Virus record (IMG/VR): IMGVR_UViG_3300028844_001719
Location: 1-23,773 of that record
DNA from: a virus
Length of the DNA: 23,773 nt
Direction: 5' to 3' (one strand)
The notes under the pieces: model-generated
What the model was told of the DNA's origin: nothing
Database searches by the model: none
The model's input: the letters and a program-made list of their open reading frames with translations, nothing else
Shown here: positions 9,180 to 19,704 of the stretch, piece after piece
Position numbering within the stretch: position 1 is the stretch's first letter
Layout: each line of letters opens with the position of its first letter
Made by a program: the position numbers and the translations under genes

Positions 9180-9338
9180 ATGAATGGCAAAGGAAGCAAG
9201 AGGCGATTGGAACAGATTTCCGATGCACAGATGCAGGAAAACTGGGACAAAATTTTCGGTAAAGCGGAGGACAAGAAAAACTATGATAGACGAAAAAATC
9301 CTATCAATTCTCGAAAGAGAACAAAATCGACAGACTGA
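9180..9338 (+). CDS. Small conserved basic protein (MNGKGSK family)
   Basis: 52 residues from ATG 9180. The start M-N-G-K-G-S-K-R-R followed by ENWDKIFGK is a pattern seen in small conserved proteins of marine T4-like phages. The tail after residue 32 is basic (KNYDRRKNP, SRKRTK). It begins 2 nt after the preceding gene and its last 56 nt overlap the start of the SHMT gene in another frame, whose Shine-Dalgarno (GCGGAGGA) lies within it. Function unknown. Confidence 0.65.
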   Translation: MNGKGSKRRLEQISDAQMQENWDKIFGKAEDKKNYDRRKNPINSRKRTKSTD

Positions 9339-10371
9339 TACTGTTGAACTTATCGCGAGTGAAAACTTCGCGAGCCAAGAGGTAATGGATTTGTGTGGAA
9401 GTGTCTTCACAAATAGAAGTGTCTTCACAAATAAGTACGCCGAAGGATATTCCGGTAAACGTTATTACAACGGATGCGATCATATGGACGAGATCGAGGA
9501 TCTAGCCATCGAAAGGGCAAAGTCTCTCTTTGGTTGTAAGTACGCAAATGTCCAACCACACTCGGGCGCCAACGCGAACACCGCCGTCTATCAAGCATTT
9601 CTGAAACCTGGCGATGTCCTTCTGGGTATGGATCTTGCTTCAGGTGGTCATCTATCACATGGAAGTCCGCCGAACATATCCGGTAAAATTTACCACTCAT
9701 ATTCCTATGGTGTGGATGATGAAGGTCTCTTGGACTATGATGCAATCGAGGAACAAGCCCTAGCAATAAAACCAAAAATGATTGTTGCGGGGGCGAGTGC
9801 CTATCCAAGACAAATTGACTTTTCGCGATTCTACGAAATCGCACAAAAGTGTGGAGCATATCTCCTTGCAGACATCGCACACTATTCTGGATTGATTGCA
9901 GGATCTGCTTATGAGAGTCCCTTTCCTTATGCAGATGTAGTCACTTCGACAACTCACAAGACTCTTCGAGGGCCACGAGGTGGAATCATTTTGTGGAACA
10001 AGAGAGAGTACAATCGGAGAATCAACAGTGCAATTTTTCCAGGCACTCAAGGTGGCCCACTGATGCATATCGTTGCGGCAAAGGCACAATGTTTTCACGA
10101 GGCGTTGCAACCCGAGTTTGAAACCTATGCGGTCAATGTCATTGAAAACGCAAAGGCGATGGGAAAGGTCTTTCGGAAACGAGGTATCAAAATTCAAACG
10201 AATGGAACAGATAGTCACATTCTTTTGTTGAATCTAACTAAGAGTAAGTACAGTGGGCGTGAAGCCGCTGATCTTCTTGAAGAGAATGGTATCACAGTCA
10301 ACAAGAATGGGATTCCAAACGATCCAAGATCATTCACCGAGACGAGCGGAATACGAATCGGCACTGCGTGA
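9283..10371 (+). CDS. glyA: Serine hydroxymethyltransferase, C-terminally truncated
   Basis: PLP enzyme converting serine and tetrahydrofolate to glycine and 5,10-methylene-THF, the one-carbon donor for dTMP synthesis. ATG 9283 is preferred over the in-frame 9184 because the family N-terminus (TVELIASENFAS) fits it and GGAGGA lies just upstream. Hallmarks present: KYAEGYSGKRYY, QPHSGANAN, the PLP-lysine motif TTHKTLRGPRGG and SGIRIGTA with the substrate-binding Arg. Two defects: a 6-residue tandem duplication (SVFTNRSVFTN) right before KYAEGY, and a stop immediately after SGIRIGTA. At 362 aa it lacks about 50 C-terminal residues (E. coli GlyA 417). Activity is doubtful; it may be a decaying gene or a minimal form. 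Confidence 0.85.
   Translation: MIDEKILSILEREQNRQTDTVELIASENFASQEVMDLCGSVFTNRSVFTNKYAEGYSGKRYYNGCDHMDEIEDLAIERAKSLFGCKYANVQPHSGANANTAVYQAFLKPGDVLLGMDLASGGHLSHGSPPNISGKIYHSYSYGVDDEGLLDYDAIEEQALAIKPKMIVAGASAYPRQIDFSRFYEIAQKCGAYLLADIAHYSGLIAGSAYESPFPYADVVTSTTHKTLRGPRGGIILWNKREYNRRINSAIFPGTQGGPLMHIVAAKAQCFHEALQPEFETYAVNVIENAKAMGKVFRKRGIKIQTNGTDSHILLLNLTKSKYSGREAADLLEENGITVNKNGIPNDPRSFTETSGIRIGTA
9398..9433 (+). repeat. Perfect 2 x 18-bp tandem duplication inside SHMT
   Basis: GAAGTGTCTTCACAAATA occurs twice in direct succession (9398-9415 and 9416-9433), in frame. It adds six residues next to the conserved active-site loop KYAEGY. Identity is 100%, so it is either recent or an assembly error. 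Confidence 0.95.
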
Positions 10372-10428
10372 TTATATACGAACTCAATTTTACTTACAGA
10401 TAAAAAATCGAAATACTAAAATAAAAAA

Positions 10429-11490
10429 ATGTTACCAAATAACAGAACAAAAAAAATACTAGGTAAAAACCTAGATCTATCTGAATTGTCGAATAAACTA
10501 CCTTTCGATGGTGAAGATATCACAAGTCTACCAGTCGAATATACACCCATTGGTTGGGACTGGTATGACTTGTCTACCTATGTGGAAGACGACAACAAAA
10601 CAATCAGATCTGAAGGCAATGCCGGGTCGAAGATTCAACTGAATCAGGAAGAATTAATGGCTGGTCTGGAAATGAATGGATGGGATACTAAATTCATTCC
10701 TCCTGTTATTAATGATTCTGGTGAGTTACAGGATGGAAGACAGAGGTGTAGATCAATGATCGCACTTGGTCAAAGCTTTGTGCCGGCACTAGTGGTCACT
10801 ATAAATGGAAATGCTCGAGCAGCTGCGTCTGTAATGAACATTCATCCTACGCATTCAAACCGGACTATGGAAGACCTTGTTGTCTCTATGCTTGCTGATT
10901 ATTATGACGGTCGTTACAAAGCGGACAGTGGAGAAATCGAAAAACTGTTGATTACAGAATATCAGATTTGGAAATCTTTCCGAAAAAATAGTGGAATATT
11001 AACAAAAGTAACAAATATTATTAAGCGTAGAATTGATGAAGATGACGCTAATATTAGGAGAAAGCCAAGAGATGAGTGGATACAATGGTTGAAAGATCAA
11101 GTGAATATTGATTTGAAAAAGGATAATATCCTTCTATATCGAGCTACCGCTCAAGCCAGTAAGGACTTTTTGATGGATCGCTTTCTCGATATTGGGAAAA
11201 GAGGTGGAAAACCCAAAATTATCTTATATGTAGATGTAGATGTAAAATCTAAAGCTCGAGCTCGAGTTGATGCTTTTATGGACGAAATCACATCATTCCA
11301 AAAAAACATTTTTGGATATGTTAGCACATCTGTTTTTACGGGTACGAACAAAAACACGAAATTAAGTCCCCCAAAAAACTCGGTTGATCTAGTTGGAATT
11401 ATTCCTCAGGCATCCACTAAACTTGAGAAAGAGTATTATGAGAGTGGAAAACTTCTCACACGAGAGGAGTTCAACTCGCTGGATCAGTAG
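10429..11490 (+). CDS. ParB/sulfiredoxin-fold-like protein
   Basis: 353 residues. The N-terminal region carries a ParB-like core: FIPPVINDSGELQDGRQRCR with DGRQR at 102-106, then ALGQSFVPALVV, matching the iDG.hR...a....G...vPv.v pattern of ParB-N/Srx domains (DNA binding, CTPase or kinase activities are known in this fold). The C-terminal 200 residues are helical and basic and not recognised. It is AT-rich with AAA-type codons unlike gp43 or gp41, and has no visible Shine-Dalgarno, only an A-rich run before ATG 10429. Seven bases separate it from the PP-loop ligase, so they probably act together. Confidence 0.65.
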   Translation: MLPNNRTKKILGKNLDLSELSNKLPFDGEDITSLPVEYTPIGWDWYDLSTYVEDDNKTIRSEGNAGSKIQLNQEELMAGLEMNGWDTKFIPPVINDSGELQDGRQRCRSMIALGQSFVPALVVTINGNARAAASVMNIHPTHSNRTMEDLVVSMLADYYDGRYKADSGEIEKLLITEYQIWKSFRKNSGILTKVTNIIKRRIDEDDANIRRKPRDEWIQWLKDQVNIDLKKDNILLYRATAQASKDFLMDRFLDIGKRGGKPKIILYVDVDVKSKARARVDAFMDEITSFQKNIFGYVSTSVFTGTNKNTKLSPPKNSVDLVGIIPQASTKLEKEYYESGKLLTREEFNSLDQ

Positions 11491-11497
11491 TTGATGC

Positions 11498-12319
11498 ATG
11501 ATCAGAAATCTTCTTACCGATCATATTAAGAATAACGCCCCCGATAATGAGATTGCGGTCTTGTTGTCGGGAGGCGTTGATTCTTTGTCTTGTGCAATCT
11601 CCGCCACAGATGCTGGTAAAACCGTAAACGCTTATTCCTTTCATCTTGACGGTAATGAGAGTTATGATTTTCACAAAGCCAAAGAGGTGTGTGAGATCAT
11701 GGATTGGAACTTTACTGGAGTTTCAGTTCCTCTGGATAATCTGGAAGAAGACTGGTTTCATTTGATGAATGAAATTGGATGTAAGAAAAAGACTCATTAC
11801 GAGTGTGTATGGCCATTTCTCTATGTTTACCCGAAGATCAAAGAAAAGTATGTTTTGACAGGCTGGGGTGCTGACGGTTATCACGGAGTCAGTAAAAAAG
11901 CAGTGATGCATTACAAGCACACTAAGGAAAAGTTTGATCAATTTCGAGATGAATATTTTCTACCAGAAAAGACGGCAGGGCTCAATTGGCACTTGACATT
12001 ATCAGAAAGGTATGATACTATTATGGTCAATCCTTTCTTAGATGAGAAAGTAAAAAAATATTTCTATCAATTCACATGGGACGAGTTAAACATTCCAAAA
12101 CAGAAACAACATATTCGAGATGATTTTCCGGAGCTAAATAGCTTTGGAAATGTCAAACCACATTTAAACTTACAACTTGCGTCTGGAGTAGATGACGTAT
12201 TTCTCACACTGCTTGATAACAAGAAAATCAATTTCAACAACCGAGAAAGAATTATGGACATCTGTAGAGACTGGAACATCAGAAACAACATAGTATCTTT
12301 AGAACAATTTTATGTATAA
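11498..12319 (+). CDS. Stand-alone asparagine-synthetase-like PP-loop ATPase
   Basis: 273 residues. PP-loop signature AVLLSGGVDSLSCAISA (SGGVDS at 24-29) for ATP adenylation, then YVLTGWGADGYHGVSKK (121-134), equivalent to the vL.GdGaDE.fgGY block of AsnB, and NPFLDEKVKKYFYQF with a later Lys-rich K-Q-K-Q-H-I-R segment. This is the synthetase half of asparagine synthetase; the N-terminal glutaminase domain is missing, so the amine donor is not glutamine hydrolysed in cis. Expected chemistry is adenylation of a carboxylate followed by amide formation. AT-rich like the ParB-like gene; overlaps the methyltransferase by 8 nt. A DNA-bound carboxymethyl substrate is proposed in the findings. Confidence 0.78.
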   Translation: MIRNLLTDHIKNNAPDNEIAVLLSGGVDSLSCAISATDAGKTVNAYSFHLDGNESYDFHKAKEVCEIMDWNFTGVSVPLDNLEEDWFHLMNEIGCKKKTHYECVWPFLYVYPKIKEKYVLTGWGADGYHGVSKKAVMHYKHTKEKFDQFRDEYFLPEKTAGLNWHLTLSERYDTIMVNPFLDEKVKKYFYQFTWDELNIPKQKQHIRDDFPELNSFGNVKPHLNLQLASGVDDVFLTLLDNKKINFNNRERIMDICRDWNIRNNIVSLEQFYV

Positions 12320-13463
12320 ACCATACAAGTTACAGGATGTAATTGAAGCATCAAATCAAAACAAATTCAAAGTAATATCTACCTTTGCTGGTGGAGGTGG
12401 TTCTTCGACTGGTTATCGACTTGCCGGAGGAAATGTTCTTTGCATCAACGAGTTCGTTGAAGAAGCTCAGAACACTTATGCACAGAACTATCCGAACACT
12501 CCTATCATTCCAGGCGACATCAAAGAACTGAAGGGTTCAGATTTTCTGGATCTCGTTGGTCTCAAGGAGGGTGAGTTGGATATTCTTGATGGGTCGCCTC
12601 CTTGCTCTGCTTTTTCTGTTGCCGGAAAACTTTCTCATTCGTCGGGCGGAAGTCATTCGGATGGATGGGGACAAACCAAGAACTATTCTGATGGTAAGAT
12701 CGTTGAGAACATCGAAGATCTTTTCTTTGAGTTTCTTCGTGTCGCAAAGAACATTCAACCAAAGGTGATTGTTGCGGAAAATGTCAAAGGGTTGACTATC
12801 GGAGAAGCCAAAGGATACATGAAGCGTATTCTCAAGACCTTTGAAGAGATCGGATATTCTCCTTCTTATGAGGTTCTGGATTCTCGATACTATGGTGTTT
12901 CTCAAACGAGGACTCGTGTTATCTTTATTGCGATTCGTAATGACGTGATGGATGAAGTCGGTTTGAACTTTATGACAATCGGTCATGTGTTTCCGGAGCC
13001 GAGCAAAGAAGTCATTCCTTTGAAAGATGCTCTGGTTGGTCTGGAATACGATAAAGAAGAGGTTCAATACTTGACAGACAAGTTCACAAAAACAGCCTAC
13101 TGGAAAGATACGGGATCTAAGATGGAGACCTTTCCAAAGAAGGTTTTGACTGGAGGAGACTACCATCCGAAAGGTCATCACTTCAATCTCAAGAGAGTTT
13201 CTCTGGAAGTTCCTGCTCCAACCTTGACTGCTATGGGAAGTGGTGACACGACTGCCGGTGCATTTCATTGGAGTGAAAAAAGAAAGTTGACATTAGGCGA
13301 ATTAAAGCGTATTATGTCTTTGCCTGATGATTTTAAACTAACTGGAAAATGGAATCAACGTGCCGAACGCTGTGGCCGCATGGTTCCTCCTCTAATGATG
13401 AAAAAGATTGCAGAAGCAGTCTACGAAAATGTTCTAAAAATATACAATGAAAAACACACCTGA
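12312..13463 (+). CDS. C5-cytosine DNA methyltransferase, predicted carboxymethyltransferase
   Basis: 383 residues. C5-MTase motifs in order: I FAGGGGSSTGYRLAGG (25-40), II with ribose-binding E47 (CINEF), IV GSPPCSAFS (catalytic C98), VI AENV (155-158), VIII QTRTR (198-202), a target-recognition region around 250-315, IX-like RIMSLPDDF, and X RCGRMVPPLM. In motif X the near-invariant Asn of GNxVPP is Arg (R356). This residue borders the methyl donor; its Lys substitution in M.MpeI allows carboxy-SAM use. The gene overlaps the PP-loop ligase (8 nt) upstream and the CmoA homologue (17 nt) downstream. It is solidly a C5-MTase; donor choice is inference. After the first ~80 nt its codon use matches the phage core. 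Confidence 0.92.
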   Translation: MYKPYKLQDVIEASNQNKFKVISTFAGGGGSSTGYRLAGGNVLCINEFVEEAQNTYAQNYPNTPIIPGDIKELKGSDFLDLVGLKEGELDILDGSPPCSAFSVAGKLSHSSGGSHSDGWGQTKNYSDGKIVENIEDLFFEFLRVAKNIQPKVIVAENVKGLTIGEAKGYMKRILKTFEEIGYSPSYEVLDSRYYGVSQTRTRVIFIAIRNDVMDEVGLNFMTIGHVFPEPSKEVIPLKDALVGLEYDKEEVQYLTDKFTKTAYWKDTGSKMETFPKKVLTGGDYHPKGHHFNLKRVSLEVPAPTLTAMGSGDTTAGAFHWSEKRKLTLGELKRIMSLPDDFKLTGKWNQRAERCGRMVPPLMMKKIAEAVYENVLKIYNEKHT

Positions 13464-14166
13464 TTTTACCTTTGCCCATCGAGAAGAGGGGTTTGACAAT
13501 CACATCGAGGATTCGATTCGAGGTTACTCTAACCTCCACGACGATGTAGTGAATCTCTCTCAATACTTTGTTGAGAATGATTCGGACAAAATGGTTCTGG
13601 ACATTGGTTGTTCGACCGGAAAAACCATCATGGCTATGATGGAACAGAATCGCTCATTTGCTCCTAAGACTCTTTATGTTGGAGTTGAGTATGCAAGTGG
13701 GTTTCGCGATGGTTTGTGGAATCGAGAAGAAGAGATCAAACAAAAGGAGCTGGGTCGGGCAAAGTTTCACGTCGAGGACATTCGAAACTTCAAGTTCAAG
13801 TCATCCAGTTATTCTTTGATTACATCTCTCTTCACTCTACAGTTTATGCCTCCATCCGAACGGCAGGGAATCTTGAAAAAGATCTATGACAGTCTTGTGT
13901 CGGGTGGTGCGTTTATCTTTTCAGAAAAAACTATTTCTTCCGATTCAAGGATTCAAGACATGATCACCTTTACTTTCTACGATCACAAGAGGAAGACATT
14001 TGATGATAAGGATATCCTTGATAAGGAAAGGACTCTGCGACATATGTTGAAGCCTAACACTTGGCAAGAGTTGGTTTCTATGTTGGAGACTGCGGGATTC
14101 GATTCAAGGAAGATTCAACCCTTCTGGCAAAACCATCTCTTCATGGGAGCAATTGCAATGAAATGA
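13447..14166 (+). CDS. cmoA: CmoA-like carboxy-SAM synthase
   Basis: 239-residue SAM-binding protein with the CmoA layout: S-I-R-G-Y-S-N-L (CmoA SVPGYSN), SAM motif VLDIGCSTGKT, then SLFTLQFMPPSERQGILKKI and GGAFIFSEK followed by YDHKRK and the helix ILDKERTLRHML, where R195 is the likely equivalent of E. coli CmoA R199, which binds the Cx-SAM carboxylate. CmoA (247 aa) makes carboxy-S-adenosyl-methionine from SAM and prephenate. In bacteria this feeds CmoB for tRNA cmo5U, but no CmoB is here. Overlap with the C5-MTase points to supplying Cx-SAM to it. The stop overlaps dCMP deaminase as ATGA. Confidence 0.86.
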   Translation: MKNTPDFTFAHREEGFDNHIEDSIRGYSNLHDDVVNLSQYFVENDSDKMVLDIGCSTGKTIMAMMEQNRSFAPKTLYVGVEYASGFRDGLWNREEEIKQKELGRAKFHVEDIRNFKFKSSSYSLITSLFTLQFMPPSERQGILKKIYDSLVSGGAFIFSEKTISSDSRIQDMITFTFYDHKRKTFDDKDILDKERTLRHMLKPNTWQELVSMLETAGFDSRKIQPFWQNHLFMGAIAMK

Positions 14167-14606
14167 ACGATCAGTGGAAAAACAGATATTATGATCTTGC
14201 TGGTGAAGTTGCCACTTGGAGTAAAGATCCATCGAAAAAGGTAGGTGCGATAATCGTAGGAAAACATGGTCAAGTTCTCTCACAGGGATACAATGGATTT
14301 CCAAGAGGTATGGACGACGATCCGAAATACTACGATGATCGAGAAAGAAAGTATGAAAGGATTGTTCATGCGGAAGCGAATGCGATCTACAACGCAACAC
14401 GCAACGGAGTTTGTTTGGATGGGTCTACGATGTTTGTCTACGGTCTTCCAATTTGTCACGAATGTGCAAAGGCTGTTATTCAGGTAGGAATTTCTGAAGT
14501 GGTGATGAAGTGGGAGAAGATTCCGTATAAGTGGCAAAAAAGCTGTCATTTGGCGGAAAAATTCTTTGACGAATCAAAAGTTAAACGCACTTACCTAGCC
14601 CCCTAA
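14163..14606 (+). CDS. cd: dCMP deaminase
   Basis: 147 residues from ATG 14163, which overlaps the preceding stop as ATGA; the frame is open further upstream but those codons lie inside the CmoA gene. Zinc and catalytic motifs: IVHAEANAI (HAE) and PICHECAKAV (PC..C). An N-terminal S-K-D-P-S-K-K-V-G-A-I-I-V strand and SQGYNGFPRG loop are typical of deoxycytidylate deaminases. It converts dCMP to dUMP for dTTP synthesis. It ends just before a weak hairpin with a T run. Confidence 0.94.
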   Translation: MNDQWKNRYYDLAGEVATWSKDPSKKVGAIIVGKHGQVLSQGYNGFPRGMDDDPKYYDDRERKYERIVHAEANAIYNATRNGVCLDGSTMFVYGLPICHECAKAVIQVGISEVVMKWEKIPYKWQKSCHLAEKFFDESKVKRTYLAP

Positions 14607-18085: not shown

Positions 18086-18111
18086 GATACATTATCTAAT
18101 TCATGGGATCT

Positions 18112-18408
18112 ATGTTAAAGTTTAAAGAATTTTTATCAGAAGAAGTCAATCTATCCGATTTCCCCAAAGGAGTCTTTGGTGGCTTACCAGTTAAAAAAAA
18201 GAGCGAAAACAGTAGAACAGCTGTATTTGTCGTTAAATCGAAGGATATTCCAAAAGATAAAGAAAAGATCTTAGGTAATCTTCTTCGGGCCGGCGAAAGT
18301 GCAAGCGGTGATTATGGCGAAATGCGGATCCGAGTGAATCCAAAGGTCTTGCGTGGCGAGAAAGGAATTTCGAAAAAAATAATTAACATAGACTTCAAAA
18401 AAGGTTAA
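18112..18408 (+). CDS. Short paralogue of the downstream gene, with capsid-targeting peptide
   Basis: 98 residues from ATG 18112 (an in-frame ATG at 18103 would add MGS). The first ten residues MLKFKEFLSE match the T4 internal-protein capsid targeting sequence (IPIII: MKTYQEFIAE), cleaved after L/I-x-E by the prohead protease. The whole protein is homologous to the first ~100 residues of the next gene, about 90% identical in DNA over the first 121 nt, then diverging. It looks like a partial tandem duplication kept as a separate gene. Function unknown; probably packaged in the head. Confidence 0.75.
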   Translation: MLKFKEFLSEEVNLSDFPKGVFGGLPVKKKSENSRTAVFVVKSKDIPKDKEKILGNLLRAGESASGDYGEMRIRVNPKVLRGEKGISKKIINIDFKKG

Positions 18409-18532
18409 GTGATGTTAAAGTTTAAAGAATTCTTATCAGAAGAAGTCAAACTATCCGATTTCCCCGAAGGAGTCTTCGGTGATTTACCAGTTGAAAAAAA
18501 GAGCGAGAACAGTAAAACAACCGTATTTGTCG
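18112..18532 (+). repeat. Direct repeat: duplicated 5' gene segment
   Basis: Positions 18112-18232 recur at 18412-18532, 300 bp apart, with about 11 differences in 121 nt by eye, a mix of silent and replacement changes. Repeat units are the first 40 codons of two adjacent genes. Confidence 0.9.
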
Positions 18533-19704
18533 CTAGATCTAATGATCGTCTCACAGATAGAGATGAGATCGCACGTAATCTTCTTCAGGCTGGACTAAAT
18601 GCACAGGTAAGAGAAAAATCCGGTCAATCGGTAGATCCAGTCCACATAGATTCAGGATTTGATAGTAAAATCATCATACTGGTCAAACCTCTTTCGGGTG
18701 GAATAGGAGAAACAACTCTCAATTCATCAATTACAGAATTGTTTCCAGCAATTGCATGGGAGACACGATACAATCCCACCGAAAACGTTGATGACTTTTA
18801 CGACCATCTCCTTAAACAAGATCCCAAGAAGCTCAAATCAGTAAATCCGAAAGATCTAAAGGCGGCAATCGATACTATTCAAAAAGCATCCGAATCTTCA
18901 AAGTTCAACGAGAAGATGTTGAATGCAGTGGGAGTTCTTAAATATATCAAAAATGAAGAATCCTCAAAGTCGATTAAAATGGTTCATTGGGGATATCGAG
19001 CCAAACCCAAAGGTGTTCCAAAAAATCATCCGGGCGATATCTTTTTAGAGTTCAATGATGGAACAATACTTGGAGTTTCTCTTAAGGCCGGAGGAAAGAA
19101 AACAAAAGAACCAAAACTTAACACCTACGTGAACCCCATCTTCAATTCTTTTGGACAGTCTCGAATGATCAAATCTCTTCGTGAAAACCTTTGGGATAGA
19201 GTCTATTCAGAAATTGAAGGAATTCCAAGTAAGAAGGCGTATGATGGTTCGGGAAGAAGACAAACCTCGAAGGCCTTGGTCGATCTCTTCAAAAAAGATT
19301 CTAAAAGATACGAAAGACTCTACGACGAATCACTTGATATTTGCCGTAAGGCGGTGATAGATCTTTTTAATCAGGATAAGGATAAAACTTTGGATTACAT
19401 TCGCAGTGAGATACTAAGAGATGCTCCCGAAGTTCCCACAAAGGTAATTAAAGCAGTAAAGAACGAATATGAGGAGATCACTGCCGACGATGAGTTGGGT
19501 GTTTTTCTTCCGTTGGTTCGTTTCATTCGGGCATATGCATCAACCACTTCAAAACAGAATTGGTTTATTGATTTGAAATCTAAAGATTCTACTGTTACAA
19601 TGGAAATGTCCATACGCACCAATAAGGCTGGAAATGCAGGATCAAAAAAGCTGGGTCAGTTTTTCAACCTCTCTGTCAAATACAACTCCTTGAAGGTAAA
19701 GTAA
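18412..19704 (+). CDS. Predicted head-internal protein with nuclease-like motif
   Basis: 430 residues from ATG 18412 (GTG 18409 is in frame and adjacent). The N-terminus MLKFKEFLSE is a T4-type capsid targeting peptide. The middle has PGDIFLEF-NDG-TILGVSLKAGG (PGD followed by SLK), resembling the PD-(D/E)xK nuclease core with Ser in place of Glu, then KLNTYVNPIFNSFG. The C-terminal end (LFNQDK to SVKYNSLKVK) is unrecognised. If packaged, it would enter the cell with the DNA. Nuclease activity is an inference from one motif. Overlaps the next gene by 1 nt (TAATG). Confidence 0.65.
   Translation: MLKFKEFLSEEVKLSDFPEGVFGDLPVEKKSENSKTTVFVARSNDRLTDRDEIARNLLQAGLNAQVREKSGQSVDPVHIDSGFDSKIIILVKPLSGGIGETTLNSSITELFPAIAWETRYNPTENVDDFYDHLLKQDPKKLKSVNPKDLKAAIDTIQKASESSKFNEKMLNAVGVLKYIKNEESSKSIKMVHWGYRAKPKGVPKNHPGDIFLEFNDGTILGVSLKAGGKKTKEPKLNTYVNPIFNSFGQSRMIKSLRENLWDRVYSEIEGIPSKKAYDGSGRRQTSKALVDLFKKDSKRYERLYDESLDICRKAVIDLFNQDKDKTLDYIRSEILRDAPEVPTKVIKAVKNEYEEITADDELGVFLPLVRFIRAYASTTSKQNWFIDLKSKDSTVTMEMSIRTNKAGNAGSKKLGQFFNLSVKYNSLKVK

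Follow-up and report, generated by a model that had tools for sequence, protein, structure and literature searches.

A probable carboxy-SAM-dependent cytosine carboxymethylation gene set in a T4-like phage fragment

Introduction

Does a DNA cytosine C5-methyltransferase homologue that carries an arginine in motif X, and whose gene adjoins one for a putative carboxy-SAM synthase, transfer a carboxymethyl group rather than a methyl group? The question is raised by a viral DNA fragment, the entire IMG/VR record of 23,773 bases, which we refer to as the window. The precedent is CmoX of Synechococcus phage S-B43 (SpCmoX), described by Yang et al. (Nat Commun, 7 Dec 2025; PMC12783734) as a DNA cytosine carboxymethyltransferase. 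According to the accessible text of that article, the CmoA of this phage was assayed as a carboxy-SAM (Cx-SAM) synthase, SpCmoX generates 5-carboxymethylcytosine at GC, CmoY adds glycine, and resistance to HhaI was shown for the modification. The same text reports that the side chain of SpCmoX R350, at the position of N304 in M.HhaI, contacts the Cx-SAM carboxylate in the crystal (PDB 8YF3), that the wild type accepts Cx-SAM only, and that an R350N variant is inactive with both cofactors.

We consider it very probable that the window, a fragment of a T4-like phage, harbors a set of CmoY, CmoX and CmoA, which would carboxymethylate cytosine with Cx-SAM and then ligate an amine, likely glycine, to the product. 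Our own evidence comprises sequence, residue identity, fold, gene order and the association of the arginine with CmoA, while the chemistry is taken from S-B43. The motif X arginine is a known mark of an enzyme family described in 2025, and the window extends this family by one member, from a further phage. The tracking of this arginine with CmoA, a sister lineage with leucine and a TET enzyme, and the exchange of the slot upstream of CmoX go beyond what the accessible part of that article covers.

Results

Open reading frames and Pfam or PHROG matches revealed T4-like phage genes in the window for a clamp loader, DNA polymerase B, a DnaB-type helicase and dCMP deaminase. On the plus strand, the genes of interest follow each other in the order SHMT, 353-aa protein, CmoY, CmoX, CmoA and dCMP deaminase, and the last four are joined by end-to-start overlaps. 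The features are as follows (loci from other records are cited by number, with the prefix L).

9283 to 10371, plus strand: serine hydroxymethyltransferase (SHMT), C-terminally truncated by an inserted segment (PF00464, E 2.3e-142)
10368 to 12311, no strand: segment with the 353-aa protein and cmoY, missing from L008 (blastn blocks; L008 is 97% identical on both flanks)
10429 to 11490, plus strand: 353-aa protein, ParB-like by eye only (DGRQR stretch), no profile match
11498 to 12319, plus strand: CmoY, predicted ATP-dependent amide ligase of the asparagine-synthetase type, overlapping the cmoX start (PF00733, identity to SpCmoY)
12312 to 13463, plus strand: CmoX, predicted DNA cytosine C5-carboxymethyltransferase (PF00145), 383 aa (63% identity to SpCmoX; 8YF3 by phmmer and model)
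12450 to 12452, plus strand: E47, ribose-binding Glu, in 87 of 87 aligned rows (role from the accessible text of PMC12783734)
12594 to 12605, plus strand: catalytic S95-P-P-C98, in 87 of 87 aligned rows
13371 to 13391, plus strand: motif X, C-G-R-M-V-P-P (C354 to P360), by direct reading
13377 to 13379, plus strand: R356 codon, equivalent to SpCmoX R350 and M.HhaI N304 (alignments to the 8YF3 chain and SpCmoX; N304-R350 equivalence from the accessible text of PMC12783734)
13447 to 14166, plus strand: CmoA, putative carboxy-SAM synthase, with a 17-nt overlap with the 3' end of cmoX (TIGR00740, identity to SpCmoA, PHROG 4752)
14163 to 14606, plus strand: dCMP deaminase, nucleotide metabolism (PF00383, E 1.6e-19)

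The dCMP deaminase is a neighbour that is unnecessary for the carboxymethylation pathway. For the product of 10429-11490, no match was found in Pfam, PHROG or NCBIfam, and its ParB-like identity was discarded, as the window protein and five relatives gave no PF02195 match at E 5.

The CmoX protein matches PF00145 (E 2.4e-56) and contains S95-P-P-C98, which confirms a C5-MTase domain. Residue 356 is arginine (codon CGC), and 13377-13394 translates to R-M-V-P-P-L, so that the arginine in motif X, from which a preliminary description of this DNA had started, is indeed present. The identity to SpCmoX extends over 375 aa, phmmer relates CmoX to 8yf3 with E 5e-152, and R356 aligns with R350 of SpCmoX. 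F25, E47, F48, D69 and S95 to C98 are identical to 8YF3, and E47, which had been stated to be unchanged, is invariant in the alignment. Structure prediction, which had been suggested as a check, agrees with this: an AlphaFold2 model (pLDDT 88.5) has 8YF3 as its first match among PDB chains, with TM scores of 0.83 and 0.95 when normalised to query and target, respectively. M.HhaI and M.HaeIII share the fold and the ten-motif plan with the window enzyme (phmmer E about 1e-16 to 1e-21), but they carry Asn at motif X and use SAM. A basic residue at this position also occurs in M.MpeI N374K, according to the accessible text of PMC12783734 an engineered user of Cx-SAM; however, that residue is an engineered Lys, its target is CG, and the native enzyme is a methyltransferase.

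The arginine is conserved in each of the 80 viral loci that the window MTase retrieved (72-98% identity), and therefore is no chance substitution. An ordinary C5-methyltransferase has Asn at motif X, and the window CmoX departs from this. To call the Asn invariant, as had been done, was slightly too strong, because relatives with Met (12 of 80 bacterial loci and one Flavobacterium phage) or Leu (80 of 80 loci similar to Methylophilales phage Melnitz) exist. The Met enzymes form a clade that comprises MTases from Bacteroidota and Firmicutes (L349-L361) and the one from the Flavobacterium phage (L251), with no CmoA nearby. Conservation within CmoX is lowest in the segment that separates the catalytic motifs, and the target site of the window enzyme may differ from that of S-B43. 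In large Erwinia phages (L006:4992-7121; L252:1384-3513), the Arg MTases measure about 710 aa, and their catalytic Cys is followed by a long insert, as it is in the MTase of Erwinia phage Y3; by its position, this insert is possibly an intein.

The gene downstream of cmoX had been taken for a carboxy-SAM synthase gene, and this assignment stands at the level of homology. CmoA matches TIGR00740 with E 9.7e-30 and 104 bits, which is under the curated cut-off of 193.3, and phmmer links it to the CmoA entries 4gek, 4iwn and 1im8. Since every phage CmoA tested misses that cut-off, including the assayed one from S-B43, its membership of the phage subfamily rests on the 51% identity to SpCmoA. The window CmoA is thus a homologue of Cx-SAM synthases, with the activity predicted.

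The occurrence of Arg at motif X was then compared with that of CmoA in three collections. With the window MTase as query, all 80 viral loci had Arg and 79 had CmoA; the query from Moraxella phage Mcat8 gave three loci, all with Arg and CmoA, and that from Streptomyces phage TurkishDelight gave 80 loci, all with Arg and 75 with CmoA. The 80 viral loci retrieved with the Melnitz MTase, 55 of which have at least 1.5 kb downstream, all had Leu, and none had CmoA. In total, CmoA was present in 157 of 163 Arg loci versus 0 of 80 Leu loci, with the weak point that 22 of the 157 calls have E values above 1e-10 and that the model was built from window-like CmoA. The six Arg loci without CmoA are all fragments of 5.7-43 kb, one of which (L038) ends at the MTase, and no CmoA match was found in any of their contigs. 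Among 17 whole phage records, which were hand-picked from 551 matches, CmoA was found in 6 of 6 with Arg versus 0 of 11 without (Asn 9, Met 1, Leu 1; two of the nine Asn records were scored by eye). In bacteria (80 loci), CmoA was in the locus for 20 of 22 Arg enzymes, none of 42 Asn enzymes and none of 12 Met enzymes; both Arg loci without a local CmoA have one elsewhere in the assembly, and the remainder comprises two gapped loci without CmoA, one gapped locus with CmoA and one locus without an MTase ORF. These counts are not independent events, because common descent links the Arg rows. Arginine without CmoA is uncommon in these collections, in line with the earlier contention that their proximity is unlikely to be coincidental. 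CmoA lies on the same strand as CmoX in all 157 viral loci and is at most 600 nt away in 126 of them. Erwinia phage Y3 has all three genes, with those for CmoA and a ligase lying together at a distance of approximately 17 kb from the Arg MTase. Scans with the L003 MTase and the L013 ligase gave three and two loci, respectively. The Verrucomicrobia MAG FR_27 holds four loci with Arg MTase and CmoA on different contigs (L340, L343, L346, L348), and two further Verrucomicrobia MAGs hold two such loci each.

The third gene of the set, cmoY, encodes 273 aa with a match to PF00733 (E 9.9e-9), 48% identity to SpCmoY and an SGG-DS loop. Its product is assigned to the asparagine-synthetase-type AMP-forming ligases, has no glutaminase domain and adjoins CmoX.

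The region upstream of CmoX varies between close relatives. In seven loci (L007-L013), the MTase is 95-98% identical to that of the window. CmoX directly follows SHMT in L008, L009, L010 and L012; L011 has SHMT, then CmoY and CmoX; L013 has SHMT, then a 474-aa ligase with a glutaminase domain (PF13522, PF13537, PF00733) and CmoX; and in the window and L007, the slot is filled by the 353-aa protein and CmoY. The window and L008 are alike on both sides of the slot, with blastn blocks that end at 10367 and resume at 12312, and this break indicates that about 1.9 kb has been exchanged for 111 bp, which removed the C-terminus of SHMT. PF00733 had no match in the contigs of L008, L009, L010 and L012 (6-44 kb), nor in the complete S-CRM01 genome or the 200,733-base L044 contig. 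For a census of the slot, we used 78 viral loci with Arg, a CmoX of 70% identity or more and no less than 1 kb of upstream sequence, with repeats removed. The slot contained CmoY in 30, an A2-family protein in 12 (one of which also has CmoY elsewhere), a glutaminase-type ligase in one and neither kind of protein in 35. When mapped onto a 79-row tree of CmoX, slot content changes at least 17 times, versus a mean of 34.1 after shuffling, a count that any cmoX recombination or assembly joins would inflate. A ligase of these types is present in 37 of 90 distinct loci that have Arg, CmoA and 1.5 kb on both sides.

The conserved A2-family protein in the ligase slot has about 265 aa (e.g., L319:3973-4797; L015:2354-3151) and no match in Pfam or PHROG. 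Its model has a pLDDT of 55, and the best Foldseek matches are GT-A enzymes (E 0.03-0.17, probability 0.82-0.87) alongside many unrelated ones; given the low pLDDT and these weak and mixed matches, we treat the glycosyltransferase label as a lead only. It often has a second protein (L015:762-1598) and a PhyH dioxygenase (L273:3268-3987) as neighbours.

SHMT is full-length in L008, L009, L011 and L012. The window copy stops roughly 25 residues short of its relatives, contains a 6-aa tandem duplication (SVFTNR/SVFTNK) absent from them, and may be inactive. We discarded the idea that SHMT is there to supply CmoY with glycine, as only 6 of 80 loci have it, it occurs both with and without a ligase, and the window copy is truncated.

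The MTases of Mcat8, the Melnitz-like loci and TurkishDelight are 43%, 40% and 38% identical to that of the window, respectively; the Leu enzymes thus stand about as near to the window enzyme as that of Mcat8 does, and nearer than that of TurkishDelight, although the latter has the Arg. The Melnitz-like enzymes align with the same cofactor-site residues and differ in the Leu at motif X and in their neighbours. A complete Melnitz-3 genome has no CmoA. The protein downstream of one Leu MTase (L004:5208-6194) matches the TET/JBP family PF12851 with E 3.6e-11, above the cut-off, and has a conserved H-x-D (H244, D246). Such a dioxygenase is present in 64 of 80 Melnitz-like loci (L171-L250), in 50 of the 62 that have at least 1.1 kb downstream, and elsewhere among all loci examined only in L004. 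By stop-to-stop ORF ends, 35 of the 64 share the strand of the MTase and start between -60 and +120 nt from its end. In two trees built without the motif X columns (64 and 70 rows), the Leu rows nest inside the Arg rows; the relevant forks in the 64-row tree have support of 100/99, 98/96 and 97/90, and for the 70-row set, the Arg rows stayed on one side in 0% of 200 bootstrap trees. A single Arg clade is nevertheless compatible with the AU test, which failed to reject it in two runs (p 0.147, and p 0.348 for the 70-row set), and for this reason we do not claim a loss of Arg.

Discussion

For the window, we infer the enzyme activities, the GC target, glycine as the amine and the protection of phage DNA. 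CmoA would convert SAM and prephenate to carboxy-SAM. CmoX would flip the cytosine out, C98 would attack C6, and the carboxymethyl group would be transferred to C5. R356 is expected to pair with the carboxylate of Cx-SAM, and we propose that Cx-SAM would therefore be selected over SAM. CmoY would activate 5-carboxymethylcytosine with ATP and join it to an amine, most likely glycine, and the resulting 5-glycylcarboxymethylcytosine would shield the phage DNA from restriction. The window and S-B43 have in common all three genes, the catalytic C98, the cofactor residues, the selecting Arg and the near-invariant ligase residues, at identities of 51% (CmoA), 63% (CmoX) and 48% (CmoY). They differ in gene order, which is CmoY-CmoX-CmoA in the window and CmoA-CmoY-CmoX in S-B43, and in the 353-aa protein and truncated SHMT upstream in the window. 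In essence, the preliminary description was right in linking the arginine to Cx-SAM, and with R356 equivalent to R350, the biochemistry and crystal structure of the 63% identical homologue in the accessible text of PMC12783734 put that interpretation already in print.

That description had also left room for continued use of SAM. If the window CmoX used SAM, alone or besides Cx-SAM, it would make 5-methylcytosine and the Arg would be neutral, and a complete C5-MTase SAM-binding site (E47, F25, D69) is in fact retained. Since wild-type SpCmoX took Cx-SAM only, SAM use is unlikely by homology, and the R356N variant that had been put forward was in effect made as the inactive R350N of SpCmoX (both according to the accessible text of PMC12783734). 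Moreover, Arg MTases and CmoA co-occur in the viral, whole phage and bacterial collections, and the related lineage without Arg is also without CmoA; we hold this alternative to be very improbable. CmoA might instead serve tRNA (cmo5U) in the bacterial style and be a chance neighbour of an unusual MTase. A tRNA role is known for bacterial CmoA, and PHROG 4752, which the window CmoA matches with E 5.8e-58, is annotated as tRNA methyltransferase. However, the constant strand and short distances to CmoX, the presence of all three genes in Erwinia phage Y3 despite their separation, the absence of a tRNA gene from the window, and the lack of CmoB in S-B43, as the accessible text of PMC12783734 has it, make a chance neighbourhood scarcely credible.

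A further option accepts the carboxymethylation and departs from it in the last step, in that the ligase would use an amine other than glycine, or that the adjacent SHMT would supply the substrate. Ligase clusters with other likely amines exist according to the accessible text of PMC12783734, and SHMT, which makes glycine, sits upstream. Yet 26 positions, picked by conservation, are near-invariant across 72 CmoY rows, and the window CmoY has the SpCmoY residue at every one of them. SHMT is not tied to CmoY either, for the contigs of L008, L009, L010 and L012 contain SHMT but lack a ligase, whereas the window has CmoY and a truncated SHMT. We regard this option as unlikely, if well worth bearing in mind, and glycine ligation after carboxymethylation as the preferred reading.

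Some phages are known to encode a C5-methyltransferase together with a TET enzyme and glycosyltransferases (the accessible text of PMC12730594, citing Burke et al. 2021). For the exchange of partners described here, the simplest reading would be that one MTase family serves either of two handles, with the motif X residue and the partner gene changing together. Arg would go with CmoA and a carboxymethyl group, and Leu with TET/JBP and a methyl group from SAM that is then oxidised. The slot upstream of CmoX would act as a plug-in, holding the glycine ligase, a glutaminase-type ligase, the 265-aa protein or none, such that related phages would differ in the DNA chemistry that they build on a common handle. 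We see the arguments for this wider scheme as evenly balanced. We found no published report of the TET exchange or the slot exchange in a literature search that was thin on subscription papers and preprints. If the Leu/TET lineage truly methylates with SAM, one active-site position and one neighbouring gene would set the cytosine chemistry. Should the slot exchange prove real, phages would renew their DNA chemistry by swapping the last enzyme only, which would explain how they stay ahead of modification-dependent restriction, and the slot would yield a list of candidate DNA-tailoring enzymes.

Apart from the gene set, the window contains at 18103-19704 two adjacent ORFs with nearly the same start (LKFKEFLSEEV-LSDFP-GVFG-LPV-KKSEN), a partial tandem duplication.
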